A stretch of 64,000 nucleotides of DNA from Saccharothrix sp. S26 (lineage in GTDB: Bacteria; Actinomycetota; Actinomycetes; Mycobacteriales; Pseudonocardiaceae). Each line of letters begins with the position of its first letter. Position 1 is the stretch's first letter. The position numbers and the translations under genes are program-made. Of this stretch, positions 40,317-45,729 are shown one piece after another. The notes under the pieces are model-generated. The model did not search any database. It saw only the letters and a list, made by a program, of their open reading frames with translations, and was not told where the DNA came from. The stretch covers positions 62,001 through 126,000 of the forward strand of contig NZ_JAJUWT010000024.1 in the NCBI RefSeq assembly GCF_021390395.1. The letters run 5' to 3'.

Positions 40317-41489
40317 TCAACTGCGACGAACGCCACCCGCGGCCTTCAGCGCACCCGGCGCGTCGACGGCGGCCTGACGTGCGGCGACGAGGGCGGCGAG
40401 CAGCTGGGCGTGACGTGCGTCGGCGTCGTGGCCCGCCGTGCCGTTGGCCATCCGGTGCCGCAGGAACGCCAGTTCCGTGGCGGCCACCTGGTAGCCCGCG
40501 ACGGCCTTGGCCGCCTCGTCGCCGACCTTGCGCTTCACGGTGCGCCGCCACCGGCTGCGGCCCTGCAGGCTCGCCAGCAGGGTCACCTCGCTGGAGGCGA
40601 TCCACTTGTTGGCGGCCATGGCGGGCAGCTGGCCCGCGACGATGCGCTGCTCGCGGCGGCGCTGCCAGACGACCATGAGCACCATGCCGGCGAAGATCGG
40701 CACCATGATCAGGAAGTACAGGTTGATGAACGTGGAGCCGGTGCCGACGGTGGTGGAGAAGTTCCACAGCGAGTGCAGGCCGGCCGCGCCGAGGTAGCCC
40801 AGGACCGGCGCGACGACGCGGACCCCGCGGCTCGCGGTCATGGCCGCGATGCCGATGCCGATGCCGGTCATCGACGTGAACAGCGGGTGCGCGAACGGGG
40901 AGAGCACGCCGCGCAGGATGAACAGGGCGATCACGCCGCTGCCCAGGTCGCCGAACCCGCTGTCGGAGAAGACGCGGGCGAAGTACCAGATGTTCTCGGT
41001 GAACGCGAAGCCGGCGGCCGTGACGCCCGCGTAGACCACGCCGTCCACCACGCCGTCGAACTCCTGGCGGCGGCGCAGGAACAGCACCACGATGAACGCG
41101 GCCTTCGCGGCCTCCTCGGTGATCGGCGCGCCCACCACGGCGGCGAACGTGCTGCCGTCACCGCCGTCGATGAGCTGGCCGAGCACGTGCGCGGTCTGGT
41201 TGAACACCAGGGAGGTGATCGTCGCGCCGCACGCGCCCCAGAAGAACGCCAGCAGCAGGATCTTCGCGGGTTCGGGTTCCCAGCGGTCGACCCACAGGTA
41301 GGCGCCGATGACGGCGAGCACGGGCAGCAGCGCGGCCACCGCGCCGACCAGGATCGGCAGCAGGCCGGTCCGGGAGGTGCCGAGGCCGAGCAGGACCAGC
41401 CCGGACACGCCCAGCGCGATCAGGCCCAGGACCGGGAGCAGGACCGTCCAGCGCTGCTGGTCGACGCGCTTGCGGGCGGGAGTGGTCAC
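40317..41489 (-). CDS. PrsW-family intramembrane metalloprotease
   Basis: This 390-residue protein has about eight transmembrane helices and the PrsW motifs: GAPITEEAAKAAF (EExxK), GVTAAGFAFTENIWYF (FxxxEN) and LSPFAHPLFTSMTG (H-rich). It ends with a long cytoplasmic basic tail. PrsW proteases cleave membrane proteins, for example the anti-sigma factor RsiW in Bacillus. No sigma/anti-sigma pair lies nearby. GTG 41489 gives a 30-bp divergent gap to the MidA-type methyltransferase gene. Confidence 0.87.
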   Translation of the reverse strand: MTTPARKRVDQQRWTVLLPVLGLIALGVSGLVLLGLGTSRTGLLPILVGAVAALLPVLAVIGAYLWVDRWEPEPAKILLLAFFWGACGATITSLVFNQTAHVLGQLIDGGDGSTFAAVVGAPITEEAAKAAFIVVLFLRRRQEFDGVVDGVVYAGVTAAGFAFTENIWYFARVFSDSGFGDLGSGVIALFILRGVLSPFAHPLFTSMTGIGIGIAAMTASRGVRVVAPVLGYLGAAGLHSLWNFSTTVGTGSTFINLYFLIMVPIFAGMVLMVVWQRRREQRIVAGQLPAMAANKWIASSEVTLLASLQGRSRWRRTVKRKVGDEAAKAVAGYQVAATELAFLRHRMANGTAGHDADARHAQLLAALVAARQAAVDAPGALKAAGGVRRS

Positions 41490-41519
41490 GAGGGGAAACC
41501 TTAAAGGGACACTTGACCG

Positions 41520-42431
41520 ATGGTGGACTCGGAAGCCCTCTGGCGGGAGGCGCTGTACGGGCCGTCGGGGTTCTTCACCCGCGGCGAGGTCCCGGCCGAC
41601 CACTTCCGCACCGCCCCGCTGGTGGGTCCTGAGCTGGCCGAAGCGCTGCTCGTGCTCCTCGAACGGGTGGACTTCGCGCTGGGTCGGCCGGCCCGGCTGG
41701 ACTTCGTGGACGTGGGCGCGGGCGGCGGCGAGCTGGCGGGCGCGGTGCGCGCCCTGGCCTCGGGCTCGCTGGCGGCGCGGCTGGTGGTGACGGCGGTGGA
41801 CCTGGGGCCGGCGCGGTCGGTGCCGGGCGTGCGGTGGCGGTCGACGCTGCCGTCATCGGTGCGCGGGTTGCTGGTCGGGCACGAGTGGTTGGACGCGGTG
41901 CCGTGCCCGTTGGTCACCGGACCGGCGTCGCACCCGTGGCTGGACCGGTGGTGGCCGGTGCGCGACGGCGAACGCGCGGAGCTCGGGCAGCCGAGGGACG
42001 AGGCGTGGGCGGACGCCGTGTCCCGGGTCGAGCGCGGCGCGGCCCTGGCGGTGGACTACGGGCACGTGCGCGCGGATCGGGTGGCGGGCCGGTACGCGGC
42101 CGGCACGTTCGCCGCGTACCGGGGCGGCCGGCGGGTGGAGCCGGTGTTCGACGGCACGTGCGACCTGACCGCGCACGTGGCGCTGGACGCGTGCGCCGAG
42201 GCGGCCGGCGGCGAGTGGGTGCTGGTGTCGCAGCGGGACGCGCTGGCCGCGCTGGGGTTCGTCGGGGCGGTGTCGCCGGGCGAGCCCGACTGGCTGGCCG
42301 CGGCCGAGCGGGCGTCCCGGATCGCCGAGCTGCGGGCCGAGGGCGGCCTGGGCTCGTTCGGGTGGTTGCTGCACGCGGTCGGCGTGCCCCTGTCCGCCCT
42401 GCTCCCGCCGCTGCCCCCGTGGCGGCCCTGA
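41520..42431 (+). CDS. MidA/NDUFAF7-family SAM-dependent methyltransferase
   Basis: This 303-residue protein has the PF02636 signature at the N-terminus (LYGPSGFFTRGEVPADHFRTAPLVG), a SAM motif FVDVGAGGGELAGAVRAL, VGHEWLDAVPCP, ALAVDYGH and GTFAAYRGGRRVEPVFDGTCDLTAHV. The eukaryotic member NDUFAF7 symmetrically dimethylates an arginine of complex I subunit NDUFS2. Two genes downstream, at 42988, is a NuoD/NDUFS2 homologue keeping that arginine. The function as an arginine methyltransferase is therefore a strong inference from family and neighbour, not proven. Confidence 0.85.
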   Translation: MVDSEALWREALYGPSGFFTRGEVPADHFRTAPLVGPELAEALLVLLERVDFALGRPARLDFVDVGAGGGELAGAVRALASGSLAARLVVTAVDLGPARSVPGVRWRSTLPSSVRGLLVGHEWLDAVPCPLVTGPASHPWLDRWWPVRDGERAELGQPRDEAWADAVSRVERGAALAVDYGHVRADRVAGRYAAGTFAAYRGGRRVEPVFDGTCDLTAHVALDACAEAAGGEWVLVSQRDALAALGFVGAVSPGEPDWLAAAERASRIAELRAEGGLGSFGWLLHAVGVPLSALLPPLPPWRP

Positions 42432-42498
42432 CCGGTCCGCGGGCTCGACGGCCGAAGACCGCCGGCGACCGTGACCGGGCGCGGCGAAGGTCGGGTGC

Positions 42499-42945
42499 AT
42501 GAGGATCCACGCACTGCCGGACGACGTGCTCGACCGGGCGCGCGAGCTCGCCGGCACCGACGAGCACCACGAGTGGCACGCCGAGTCGCCGGGCGCGCCG
42601 CTGCGCTGCTGCCTGCGCAAGGCCGGGCCGGGCGAGCCGCTGGTCCTGTTCCGCCACACGCCGGGCGCCGGCACCGGGCCGTACGAGGAGCTGGGCCCGG
42701 TCTTCGCGCACGCCGAGCCGTGCGACGGGCCGGCGACCACGGCGCGGTTCCCCGAGGCGTTGCGCCACTCGTCGCGCACCCTGCGCGCCTACACCGCCGA
42801 CGGCCGGATCCACGGCGGCGAGGTCGTGGAGCCCGACCGCCTCGACGACCGCGTGGCCGCCCTGCTCGACGACCCGGAGGTCGCCGAGGTCCAGGTCCGC
42901 AGCGTGTCCCACGGCTGCTTCCTGTTCGCCATCACCCGCGGTTAG
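42499..42945 (+). CDS. DUF1203-type protein of unknown function
   Basis: This 148-residue protein has features of DUF1203: PLRCCLRKAGPGEPLVLFRHTP near the middle, PYEELGPVFAHAEPC, RTLRAYTADGRIHGG and a final EVAEVQVRSVSHGCFLFAITR. The gene sits between the MidA-type methyltransferase gene and the nuoD-like gene on the same strand, with gaps of 67 and 42 bp, so co-transcription is plausible. No biochemical role is known to me. Confidence 0.8.
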   Translation: MRIHALPDDVLDRARELAGTDEHHEWHAESPGAPLRCCLRKAGPGEPLVLFRHTPGAGTGPYEELGPVFAHAEPCDGPATTARFPEALRHSSRTLRAYTADGRIHGGEVVEPDRLDDRVAALLDDPEVAEVQVRSVSHGCFLFAITRG

Positions 42946-42987
42946 GGCTCGCCCGGCGCGACGGCGCGGCCGTGCGACCATGACCCG

Positions 42988-44052
42988 GTGGAGATCACCG
43001 TTGGCGTGGGCGCCGGCGCGCGCCACCTGGGCGTGGACCGGGTGGTCGACCTCGGTCCCCTGCACCCGTCGGCGCACGGCGCGTACCGGCTGCAGCTGAC
43101 CGTCCGCGACGACGAGGTCATCACGGCCGCCGCCCCGCTGGTCGGGCACCTGCACCGGGGCGCGGAGAAGCTGTTCGAGGTCCGCGACTACCGGCAGGTG
43201 CTGACCCTGGCCAACCGGCACGACTGGCTCGCCGCCTTCTGCAACGAGCTGGCCGTCGCCCTGGCCGTCGAGCGCATGACCGGCATGGACGTCCCGCCGC
43301 GTGCCCAGGCGTTGCGGGTCGTGCTGTGCGAGCTGAACCGGGTCATGGCCCACCTGGTGTTCCTCGCGCCGCTCACCGGCACGCGGGACCGCGACGCGGT
43401 GCAGGCCGTGCTGGAGGAGGCGTCCGGCGGCCGGATCCACTTCATGGCCAACCGGATCGGCGGCCTGCGCGAGGACGTGCCCGCCGGCTGGACCGACCGG
43501 GTCCGCGAGGTGCTGTCCACTGTGGACCCCGGCGAGCCGCCGGAGGGGTTGGCGGGCCTCGGGGTGCTCGACCGCGACGCCGCGCTCGCGTACGGCGTCA
43601 CCGGCCCGATCGGCCGGGCGTCCGGAGTGGACTTCGACCTGCGCCGCGACGACCCGCTGCCCGGCTACCGCGACCTCGGCGTGCGCCCCGTCGTGCGCGC
43701 CGAGGGCGACGCGCTGGCCCGCGTGCGCTGCCTGGTCGACGAGGTCCACCACTCGGTCGCGCTCGTCCGCCAGTGCCTGGACCACCTGCCGGCCGGTCCG
43801 GTCAACCTGCGCCTGCCCAAGGCGGTCAAGGCGCCCGAGGGCTCGGTCTACACCTGGGTCGAGGCGCCCCTGGGCACCTCCGGCGTGCACCTCGCGTCAC
43901 GCGGCGAGAAGACGCCGTGGCGGCTGAAGCTGCGCACGCCGTCGTTCAACAACGTCCAGGCGCTGTCCGCGCTGCTGCCCGGCACGAAGGTGTCGGACCT
44001 GCCCGCGGTGCTCGGGTCGTTCGCCGTGGTGGTCGGCGACATCGACAAGTGA
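42988..44052 (+). CDS. Solitary NuoD/NDUFS2-like protein (complex I 49-kDa subunit homologue)
   Basis: This 354-residue protein aligns with the NuoD core: DLGPLHPSAHGAYRLQ (H26, H30), PLVGHLHRGAEKLFE (R57), NELAVALAVERMTG, LNRVMAHLVFL, RIGGLREDVPAGW, GPIGRASGVDFDLR, PEGSVYTWVEAPLG and RLKLRTPSFNNVQAL, ending in VVVGDIDK. It is slightly short and no other nuo gene is near. The quinone-site tyrosine of NuoD (in DRLDY) is W80 here (NRHDWL). R57 equals the arginine dimethylated by NDUFAF7 in mammals. It may be a paralogue with its own partner complex. Confidence 0.88.
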   Translation: MEITVGVGAGARHLGVDRVVDLGPLHPSAHGAYRLQLTVRDDEVITAAAPLVGHLHRGAEKLFEVRDYRQVLTLANRHDWLAAFCNELAVALAVERMTGMDVPPRAQALRVVLCELNRVMAHLVFLAPLTGTRDRDAVQAVLEEASGGRIHFMANRIGGLREDVPAGWTDRVREVLSTVDPGEPPEGLAGLGVLDRDAALAYGVTGPIGRASGVDFDLRRDDPLPGYRDLGVRPVVRAEGDALARVRCLVDEVHHSVALVRQCLDHLPAGPVNLRLPKAVKAPEGSVYTWVEAPLGTSGVHLASRGEKTPWRLKLRTPSFNNVQALSALLPGTKVSDLPAVLGSFAVVVGDIDK

Positions 44053-44055
44053 GCC

Positions 44056-45729
44056 CTAGTCCTCGCGGCGACGGCGGCGGCGCGGCGAGTCGGCCCCGCC
44101 GAACGCGGCCAGCAGCTCGCTGACCGACTTGCCGTCCGCGTGGGCCCCGGCGGGCTCGACCGGCTCCGGCGCGCTGCGCCTGCCGGACGGCTTCGGGGCG
44201 TCCTCCCACGAGTCCCAGTGCTCTTCGGCCCGACGGCGGCCACCCGACTCGGGTTCGGCCGCCCGGCGCCGGCCCTCGGGCGTCACGGCGGCCGACGCGG
44301 CATCGGCCGAACGCCCGCCGACCACCTCCGGCTCGGCCGGGCGGCGGCGACGCGACTCGTCCTCCGCCGGGCTCCGGGGCGCGGGTTCGGCCACCGGCAC
44401 GTGCTCGCCGGTCAGCTCGGCGCGCGCCGCGGGCCCGCGGGCCTGCTCGACCGGGTCGGGGCGACCGACGGGCCGGTGCTCACCGGTCGGCTCGGGCCGT
44501 CGACCGGGCTCGGCGGCCGGTTCCGACCGCACGACCCGGCGCACGGGCTCACCCGCCGCGGGCCGACGAGCGGCCTCGACGACCGGATCGGGACGGACCT
44601 CCGTCGGCCGCTCGGCCGCCGGGTCCGGCCGGCGCACGGGGTCGACCGGCCGGTGCTCGCCGGTCAGGTCGGCCCGGGGCCGGCGCGCCTGCACCGGGCG
44701 GTGCTCGCCCGTCAGCTCCGCCCGCGCCGTCGACGCCCGGCGCACGTCCGCCGGCGTGGCGCGCTGCTCGCCCGCCGACTCGCCCGCCCGCCGCACGGGG
44801 GCGTCCGCCAACGCCTCCCGGCTGATCATCTCGGTCCGCTCGGCCACCCGGCTGCGCCGCTGCACGGTGTGCTCGGTCTTGGACGGCTCGGCCGGCCGGG
44901 CCGGTGCCGCGGGGGCCGACAGCCGCGCCGCCACCTCCCGGTTCACGCGCTCGGTCGGCTCCGCCTTCGCCGGCTCCCGCCGCACGACCACCGGCGTCGC
45001 CGGGCGCGGCTGGGCCGCCGCACGGGCGGGCTCACGCCGCGCGGGCTGCGCCTGCTCGCGCCGCGCGGGCTCCGGGCGCGTCGGTTCGGGACGCCGCACC
45101 TGGTCCTTGCGCGAGGTGTCCGCGCCGATCCGCTCGATCAGCTCGGTCCGGTCGGGCTGCGGCTTGTCCGCGGCCTTCTTCGTCACCGGCACGGCGGGCC
45201 CGGCGTTGATGATCCGCTGGTCGCCCACCGCCATCAGCCGCGACTGGTCGGACAGGGCGCGCATCCGGGTCGACTCGGCGCGCAGCGCCACCCGCTCGAC
45301 GAGCACCTCGCCGCCGAGCAGGGCCTCCAGGTTCTCCCGCAGGGCGCGCAGCTCGCCGCGCAGCGCCTCCAGGTCGTCCTTGGCCTCCTCCCGCACGCGC
45401 TTGCGGGTCTCGGCCTCGACCTCCAGCTCGTACTCGCGCCGGGCCGCGATCTCGCGCTCCAGCTCGAGCTCGTAGACCGACTGCAGGTCGGCCACCTCGT
45501 CCTCGCGCTCGGCGACCTGCTTGCGGTAGCGGGCCGCGAGGAACGCGCCGACCAGCGCCGCCCACAGCGCGGCCACCACGGCCAACCGCAGCCAACGGGC
45601 GTTGTCGCTCAGCACCAGCACCGCCGCGGCACCGAGTGCGAGCGCCAATGCCGCTACCAGCAGTAGTCGCCCGGAGCCACGACCGCGATCCTGCTGCTCG
45701 TCATCGTCCGACGCGCCTCGCCCGGTCAT
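44056..45729 (-). CDS. DUF6779-type membrane/coiled-coil protein
   Basis: This 557-residue protein has two adjacent hydrophobic helices (about residues 21-66), a Glu/Arg-rich coiled coil (about 68-145, ending near ALLGGEVLVERVALRAESTRM), a conserved RALSDQSRLMAVGDQRIINAG patch, and a long disordered Arg/Pro/Ala-rich C-terminal half. That half contains four degenerate TGEHRPV-type heptads. It occupies the place of M. tuberculosis Rv3604c (from memory). A scaffold in the envelope or division region is possible; no function is known. Confidence 0.8.
   Translation of the reverse strand: MTGRGASDDDEQQDRGRGSGRLLLVAALALALGAAAVLVLSDNARWLRLAVVAALWAALVGAFLAARYRKQVAEREDEVADLQSVYELELEREIAARREYELEVEAETRKRVREEAKDDLEALRGELRALRENLEALLGGEVLVERVALRAESTRMRALSDQSRLMAVGDQRIINAGPAVPVTKKAADKPQPDRTELIERIGADTSRKDQVRRPEPTRPEPARREQAQPARREPARAAAQPRPATPVVVRREPAKAEPTERVNREVAARLSAPAAPARPAEPSKTEHTVQRRSRVAERTEMISREALADAPVRRAGESAGEQRATPADVRRASTARAELTGEHRPVQARRPRADLTGEHRPVDPVRRPDPAAERPTEVRPDPVVEAARRPAAGEPVRRVVRSEPAAEPGRRPEPTGEHRPVGRPDPVEQARGPAARAELTGEHVPVAEPAPRSPAEDESRRRRPAEPEVVGGRSADAASAAVTPEGRRRAAEPESGGRRRAEEHWDSWEDAPKPSGRRSAPEPVEPAGAHADGKSVSELLAAFGGADSPRRRRRRED

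Follow-up and report, generated by a model that had tools for sequence, protein, structure and literature searches.

We analysed a 64,000-nucleotide stretch of DNA from Saccharothrix sp. S26 (hereafter the window), in which a gene for a methyltransferase of the PF02636 (MidA/NDUFAF7) family, MT28, lies upstream of a solitary gene for a paralogue of the complex I subunit NuoD/NDUFS2, NuoD2, on the same strand and with a DUF1203 gene between them. The evidence below makes it probable that NuoD2 works in a second enzyme derived from complex I, that MT28 is its methyltransferase, and that in the Saccharothrix clade this enzyme is a soluble set of four subunits, B2, C2, D2 and I2 (second copies of NuoB, NuoC, NuoD and NuoI, D2 being NuoD2). 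Where they have to be told apart, genomes, loci and families carry G, L and f numbers; G000 (9.08 Mb) is the genome that contains the window.

MT28, NuoD2 and the probable target arginine

The three open reading frames scored above the Pfam cut-offs of PF02636 (51.3 bits, cut-off 23.3), DUF1203 (136.5 bits, cut-off 27) and Complex1_49kDa (188.8 bits, cut-off 24), respectively. This bears out the identities and positions that the initial annotation, made from the letters alone, had given to them, including R57 within the HLHRGAEKL motif of the NuoD-like protein. We treated NuoD2 as a paralogue because it scores below the curated NuoD equivalog cut-offs (282 versus 459 bits for TIGR01962 and 290 versus 360 for NF004739). 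Its closest named loci are from Saccharothrix, with identities of at most 95%, and Saccharothrix NuoD2 is shortened. MT28 has two sequence relatives in the PDB, 4f3n (E 1.6e-7) and 1zkd (E 6.8e-6), the third match (E 0.29) being at chance level. Aligned with these two and with 13 homologues, it displays motifs of the family: S-adenosylmethionine (SAM) motif I, E.(L)DA.P, DY.H and D.T.HV. The 14 aligned sequences have in common D64-G68-G70-E71-L72, E122-W-L-D125..P128, D179-Y.H182 and D215.T.H-V220. We take NDUFAF7 to belong to this same family. A search of G000 for PF02636 gave no match besides MT28.

NuoD2 differs from canonical NuoD at two informative positions. At that of R57, Arg is present in 110/110 NuoD2 loci, the sole extra Thr in the locus scan belonging to a canonical-type NuoD in L174, whereas canonical NuoD of the order has Thr in all 41 genomes read, namely G000 and 20 each with and without NuoD2. 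Because canonical NuoD has Thr and NuoD2 has Arg, NuoD2 is the plausible target of MT28. Arg57 is its likely site in the order, as the initial annotation had proposed, and main complex I is likely not a substrate, as judged from these alignments; canonical NuoD was discarded as an MT28 substrate in the order on account of its Thr in 41/41. At the second position, NuoD2 reads NRHDW, with Trp80, in 110 loci, whereas canonical NuoD reads TRMDY or TRADY in 41/41. NuoD2 thus lacks the Tyr which we take to be a quinone ligand (Tyr108 in the bovine protein). Both histidines of the HPxxHG loop, H26 and H30, are kept. A strongly diverged NuoD2 (39% identity) occurs in G530 (L257, 7720-8838), a genome 99% complete in which MT28 was not detected; here HRS replaces HRG.

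The same arginine is modified in known enzymes. According to the cited papers, which are represented here and below by their available excerpts, human NDUFAF7 dimethylates Arg85 of NDUFS2 in complex I assembly (PMC3829151) and in Paracoccus the corresponding residue of NuoD, Arg65, carries the dimethylation (PMC3750175); Thermus has Thr at this position (PMC3829151, PMC3750175, PMC8042128).

Co-occurrence was counted in 150 genomes of the order and 148 of the class, some being common to both samples. The sets were compiled by hand from search tables, and NuoD2 was called at an identity of at least 53% (order) or at E <=1e-60 (class). In the order, NuoD2 occurs in 53 genomes and PF02636 in 52, all of which also have NuoD2 (Fisher p ~7e-40, uncorrected for relatedness); in the one genome with NuoD2 only, G302, a draft in 460 contigs, the contig with the gene is 3.3 kb long. 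In the class, each was found in 64 genomes and both in 59. Among the five class genomes with NuoD2 only, G539 has a divergent MT28 near NuoD2, G452 an MT28 fragment at a contig end, and G448 and G504 are 78% and 70% complete, respectively; the fifth, G530, is 99% complete and has no MT28 at the locus.

The pairing is also seen in gene neighbourhoods. MT28 lies within ~5 kb of NuoD2 in 67 of 80 named loci, is partial in 2 and was not found in 11, of which 8 have <6 kb of upstream sequence. The two genes overlap or are separated by <=20 bp in 10/80 loci. They are divergent in G369, where MT28 is inverted relative to NuoD2, and convergent in G023 and G246; both are kept where they stand apart by ~46 kb (G357) or ~40 kb (G343), or on different contigs (G391, G405, G317). 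In a quick phylogeny of the 41 canonical NuoD, the best tree implies 8 changes in the presence of NuoD2, of which starred branches force 4. Across 4 independent contrasts, MT28 changed in the same direction as NuoD2 in a mean of 3.5 and never in the opposite one, with a median p of 0.25, the contrasts being too few for significance. MT28 and NuoD2 belong together, as the initial annotation supposed, and the outcome it had named as adverse, failure of the pair to co-occur, was not obtained within order and class.

The second nuo cluster in full and reduced form

A tblastn search of the window (E 1e-3) with the genome's own nuo subunits gave no nuo gene besides NuoD2, in line with the initial annotation, which had suggested a self-contained methyltransferase-substrate module; read broadly, this would be a methyltransferase-DUF1203-NuoD module unrelated to complex I. 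The local gene order in Saccharothrix and the empty surroundings speak for such a module; the rest of the genomes does not. The second NuoI, I2 (called at E <=1e-35), is present in 52 of the 150 order genomes and together with NuoD2 in 51 of the 54 that have either. NuoD2, MT28 and I2 are all present in 50 of the 54 genomes with any of them, the exceptions (G302, G382, G316, G300) being drafts, 82-96% complete and in 90-460 contigs; in G300, B2-C2-I2 is present (L269) and NuoD2 was not found. At least two NuoB (PF01058) matches occur in 19/20 NuoD2-positive genomes, with one match in G316, and a single match in 9/14 NuoD2-negative ones. The extra NuoB of G319 (L214) stands among distant nuo-like genes that include a NuoD-like gene of 24% identity.

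DUF1203 was found by tblastn in 25/80 NuoD2 loci, one of them with a weak fragment; the loci are titled Saccharothrix, Lentzea and Umezawaea, with one Nocardia sp. (L119). Judging from this distribution, DUF1203 is a lineage-specific insertion between MT28 and NuoD2 and a bystander; as a part of the module it was rejected, with 25/80 loci and few genera. Of the three families whose co-occurrence and order the initial annotation proposed to check, MT28 and NuoD2 go together and DUF1203 does not follow. Since a full second nuo cluster also exists in other families, the idea of a self-contained module is largely refuted already and keeps almost no credence. A lone NuoD outside any complex-I-like set was likewise ruled out, as B2, C2 and I2 track NuoD2. 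The pairing and its likely target thus survive from that annotation, while self-containment and a constant DUF1203 fall.

The second cluster comes in two types. The full type, nuoA-B-C2-H-I2-J-K-L-M-N without D, E, F and G, was seen in G306, G313, G351, G335, G320 and G204, some single genes being uncalled or beyond the stretch read, and as an A-B-C2-H part in G357 and G301. The reduced type is B2-C2-I2-HtpX (G000, G369, G397, G314, G342, G303, G326, G300). Both follow the order B-C-(H)-I-(JKLMN)-HtpX, with HtpX after nuoN in three full-type clusters (L204, L211, L273). The reduced type was read in the cluster for these 8 genomes, with I2-HtpX only in G302, and was assigned from family and NuoH in G315, G334 and G355. 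The full type was read wholly or partly in the eight genomes named and assigned from a second NuoH in G304, G318, G345, G343 and G317. Within the order sample, NuoD2 is spread over ten families: the full type was read or assigned in f3, f75, f77, f80, f81 and f82 and the reduced type in f1, f78 and f79, f83 being unread.

NuoH counts agree with this division. NuoH is single in 7/7 genomes whose reduced cluster was read and which were searched, and at least double in all 8 genomes for which a full cluster was read. Three more genomes of f79 were counted: NuoH is single in two of them, and in G334 a weak match of 123 bits accompanies the one copy. NuoH is likewise single in three of five controls without NuoD2, the other two, G309 and G348, showing additional weak matches (140-145 bits).

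Pfam confirmed the cluster of G000 (L196): B2 scored 81.5 bits and C2 82.3 bits, and I2 matched with its ferredoxin domains. With NuoD2 of the window, this genome therefore has a second B, C, D and I without E, F and G alongside, as in nuo2 of Streptomyces. A second membrane arm (A, H, J-N) was not found: none of its genes lies in the B2-C2-I2 cluster, and the genome has no second NuoH and no NuoL/M/N beyond the three canonical ones, A, J and K not having been searched genome-wide. Only three NuoL/M/N-type genes are also present in G369, G314, G303 and G342, and five in G397 and G326. The one further PF00346 gene of G000 lies on contig C7, within an operon arranged like the 14-gene nuo operon (gene names assigned by order, Pfam matches covering B, D, H and L/M/N).

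Several features accompany the second cluster. HtpX (an M48 protease), often with YajQ and a sugar nucleotidyltransferase, flanks B2-C2-I2 (L196 6820-9037, L197, L198, L202, L205, L206, L210, L269, L272), and HtpX is also present in the stretch read from G308, a genome without NuoD2. The cluster itself is split in some genomes (L200, L199, L273): in G357, I2 lies ~115 kb from A-B-C2-H, and in G204 other genes stand between B and C2-H.

Loss of the membrane arm is accompanied by changes in the remaining subunits. Among the rows listed, the four cysteines that ligate cluster N2 (CC, C and C) are conserved in 8/8 B2 of the reduced type, whose PRQAD loop is gone in 8/8; the loop is kept in 8/8 of the full type. 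I2 keeps its eight cysteines among the rows listed. Some I2 matches of the order-wide search have 1-2 internal stops; in the four loci compared (L202, L205, L210, L275), the match overruns the gene end. The I2 N-terminal segment (GL.KGLAVTL-like) is absent from 9/9 reduced loci, also when the open frame is extended upstream, and present in 6/6 full ones. Ten NuoD2 labelled as reduced, by reading or assignment, form one clade nested among the full ones and spanning f1, f78 and f79 (Shimodaira-Hasegawa-like approximate likelihood ratio test 89, below a star, on a quick tree with several long branches). The tree is most simply read as showing that the membrane arm was lost once.

Alternatively, B2C2D2I2 of Saccharothrix could be a second peripheral arm that docks onto the canonical membrane arm and supplies it with electrons taken from ferredoxin rather than NADH. 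Such a hybrid of nuo and nuo2 has been suggested for Streptomyces (PMC9239103); it would suit the single NuoH, NuoL, M and N of G000, which could be shared, and the position of B2-C2-I2 one gene behind the canonical nuo operon in the three f79 genomes G342, G303 and G326. However, the parts expected to contact the membrane arm, the PRQAD loop and the N-terminal segment of I2, are missing from the reduced type, and in G000 B2-C2-I2 and the canonical operon are on different contigs. We regard the hybrid as unlikely.

The same losses, with the shortened Saccharothrix NuoD2, might be thought to mark a decaying relic, the reduced cluster and NuoD2 being remnants on their way to disappearance. Yet the frames are intact, R57, W80 and the N2 cysteines are kept, and the reduced clade extends over three families. 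The ratio of nonsynonymous to synonymous substitution rates (dN/dS; method of Nei and Gojobori, NG86, crude at this G+C) is 0.11-0.49 for NuoD2, MT28, B2, C2 and I2 compared with G369 and G397, versus 0.37-0.71 for panC and folP; canonical NuoD gave 0.34-0.36 and DUF1203 0.54. The module genes are under purifying selection, and decay is very improbable.

Proposed function and its counter-evidence

We propose that a second, dispersed enzyme derived from complex I has NuoD2 as its D subunit and that MT28 serves this subunit as dedicated arginine methyltransferase and assembly factor, acting as NDUFAF7 does on NDUFS2. MT28 would dimethylate Arg57, and the modified residue would belong to the second shell of N2, the [4Fe-4S] cluster carried by B2, letting D2 and B2 close around it. 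Main complex I would skip this methylation step because its NuoD has Thr there. In several families the second enzyme would be encoded by nuoABC(D)HIJKLMN and lack the NADH module; judging from gene content, NuoD2 most likely acts there as a subunit of complex I. The Saccharothrix clade would have lost the membrane subunits, leaving B2, C2, D2 and I2 as a soluble module; electrons might pass from a ferredoxin-like donor, probably ferredoxin, through the two I2 clusters to N2 and on to an acceptor, probably other than a quinone. We see about even chances that Saccharothrix and its kin have such a soluble remnant, with neither membrane subunits nor the NuoB quinone loop, in which N2, the arginine and a private NDUFAF7-like methyltransferase are kept and which transfers electrons without pumping protons or reducing membrane quinone. 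The use of the NuoD fold outside complex I, raised by the initial annotation, would, in a narrower sense, fit these lineages, which lost the membrane subunits, but not the several families with a full second complex-I-like cluster.

In Yarrowia, mutation of the equivalent arginine abolishes N2 while the remaining enzyme is intact (PMC8042128), from which we infer that methylation of Arg57 by MT28 may secure N2 at the B2-D2 interface. Since Arg and MT28 outlive the membrane arm and the PRQAD loop, we suggest that methylation matters for N2 and for assembly more than for binding quinone or pumping. If so, nature has separated N2 maturation from quinone chemistry. The persistence of arginine and methyltransferase in Saccharothrix suggests that the modification exists for the sake of N2 and the B-D interface; whether the dimethylated arginine of complex I acts in assembly or catalysis is called unconfirmed in the available text of PMC8042128. 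A single cell would offer the comparison, with Thr in main complex I and Arg plus its own methyltransferase in the second set.

Several observations weigh against the proposal. In G530 (99% complete) and G504, MT28 was found neither at the locus nor by PF02636 although Arg is kept, and a rule that loss of MT28 entails loss of Arg was therefore dropped. MT28 was also not found by tblastn in L131, L148 and L162, each with at least 6 kb upstream. Conversely, five class genomes have MT28 without NuoD2 (G447, G455, G493, G499, G523; 72-94% complete). Outside the class, in a hand-picked subset of 29/77 MT28-positive and 23/193 MT28-negative genomes, Arg-type NuoD occurs in 27/29 of the former and also in 12/23 of the latter; the other MT28-negative genomes have Thr only (3), no NuoD match (3) or a motif that was unreadable or unfetched (5). 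In G092 and G208, which have MT28, no NuoD other than the Thr type was found. Canonical NuoD outside the class has Thr in 30/30 loci, with Arg in one more high-scoring NuoD (G043, L361) and in the sole NuoD of G002. The Arg-MT28 link is hence one-sided there, as far as sequence comparison goes: the arginine does not need MT28 everywhere, as in E. coli, where NuoCD has the arginine without the modification (PMC3750175). The pairing of MT28 with Arg-type NuoD outside the class was accordingly upheld only in part. Furthermore, B2C2I2 and NuoD2 occupy separate loci. What the sequences show is gene content, co-occurrence, residue identities, the lack of a second NuoH and NuoL/M/N in G000 and purifying selection; that R57 is methylated, that the four proteins join in one soluble complex, which way electrons flow and what accepts them are inferred from these.

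These exceptions, namely the few MT28 genomes without detected NuoD2 or Arg-type NuoD and the Arg-type NuoD without MT28 outside the class, would be explained if MT28 acted on another protein and its link to NuoD2 were no more than an ancestral neighbourhood in the fol-pan region. Against this, co-occurrence holds where the genes are apart or convergent, and it tracks changes on the tree, with few contrasts. We find another substrate quite unlikely and retain NuoD2 as the preferred one. A distant family offers one further arrangement: in L179 (G021) a C2-like gene directly precedes a NuoD-like gene beside MT28, possibly an ancestral C-D order.

Compared with NDUFAF7/MidA acting on NDUFS2 Arg85 (PMC3829151, PMC3750175), the target position, in the HRG motif beside N2, is the same. 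MT28 differs in being paired with a NuoD paralogue while main complex I has Thr, and in Saccharothrix the set that includes its putative substrate has no membrane arm. The nuo2 genes of Streptomyces, whose nuoD2 stands elsewhere on the chromosome (PMC3765725, PMC8388888), are a second complex I set without the NADH module and a full-type relative of the system described here; Saccharothrix keeps only B2, C2, I2 and D2. The available descriptions of nuo2 name no methyltransferase and list no nuoC2, whereas the full-type clusters here (L201, L204, L207, L211, L213) have a NuoC-like C2 near B and H. For the separate streptomycete nuoD2, MT28 would be a candidate for the factor that matures its product, and what nuo2 does, which the available part of PMC9239103 calls unclear, becomes testable in laboratory strains. 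The 11-subunit complex I-like enzymes of Desulfitobacterium (PMC11238625) combine the Q-module and membrane arm without NuoEFG, ferredoxin or a similar protein being the proposed donor; the Saccharothrix form is without a membrane arm. The large subunits of [NiFe]-hydrogenases are distant kin of NuoD, but NuoD2 scores below the PF00374 cut-off (16.7 versus 25.8 bits) and lacks the N- and C-terminal CxxC metal ligands.

In the open-access literature, searched with limited terms and available in part, we recognised no paper on a PF02636-nuoD2 or MidA-NuoD link, nor on a B2C2D2I2 set without a membrane arm, PMC12142623, which uses the word NuoBCDI, standing outside this negative. As far as that literature goes, Streptomyces nuo2 and its separate nuoD2 are already known, and the methyltransferase link and the set without a membrane arm are new.

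Features of the window

Table 1. Positions of MT28, DUF1203, NuoD2 and selected residues in the window
Feature	Position	Strand	Basis
MT28, PF02636 MidA/NDUFAF7-type SAM-dependent methyltransferase, 303 aa	41520..42431	+	Pfam, PDB relatives, 14-sequence alignment
MT28 SAM-binding motif I, D64-V-G-A-G-G-G-E-L72	41709..41735	+	D64, G68, G70, E71, L72 invariant in 14 sequences
MT28 family signature E122-W-L-D-A-V-P128	41883..41903	+	pairs with NEVLDAMP of 4f3n
DUF1203 protein, probable bystander between MT28 and NuoD2	42499..42945	+	Pfam; 25/80 loci by tblastn
NuoD2 (354 aa), solitary paralogue of NuoD/NDUFS2, putative D subunit in B2-C2-D2-I2	42988..44052	+	Pfam, co-occurrence
NuoD2 His26 to His30, GPLHPSAHG loop, both histidines kept	43063..43077	+	alignment of loci
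NuoD2 Arg57, matching Arg85 of NDUFS2, putative site of methylation next to cluster N2	43156..43158	+	Arg in 110/110 loci
NuoD2 Trp80 in NRHDW, Tyr in canonical NuoD	43225..43227	+	110 NuoD2 loci versus 41/41 canonical

Two neighbours on the opposite strand complete the region. A PrsW-type intramembrane protease (40317-41603, -) is divergent from MT28 and adjoins it in most Pseudonocardiaceae loci read. On the other side, a DUF6779 protein (44056-45729, -) carries a long Arg/Pro/Glu-rich tail with repeated TGEHRPV-like motifs.

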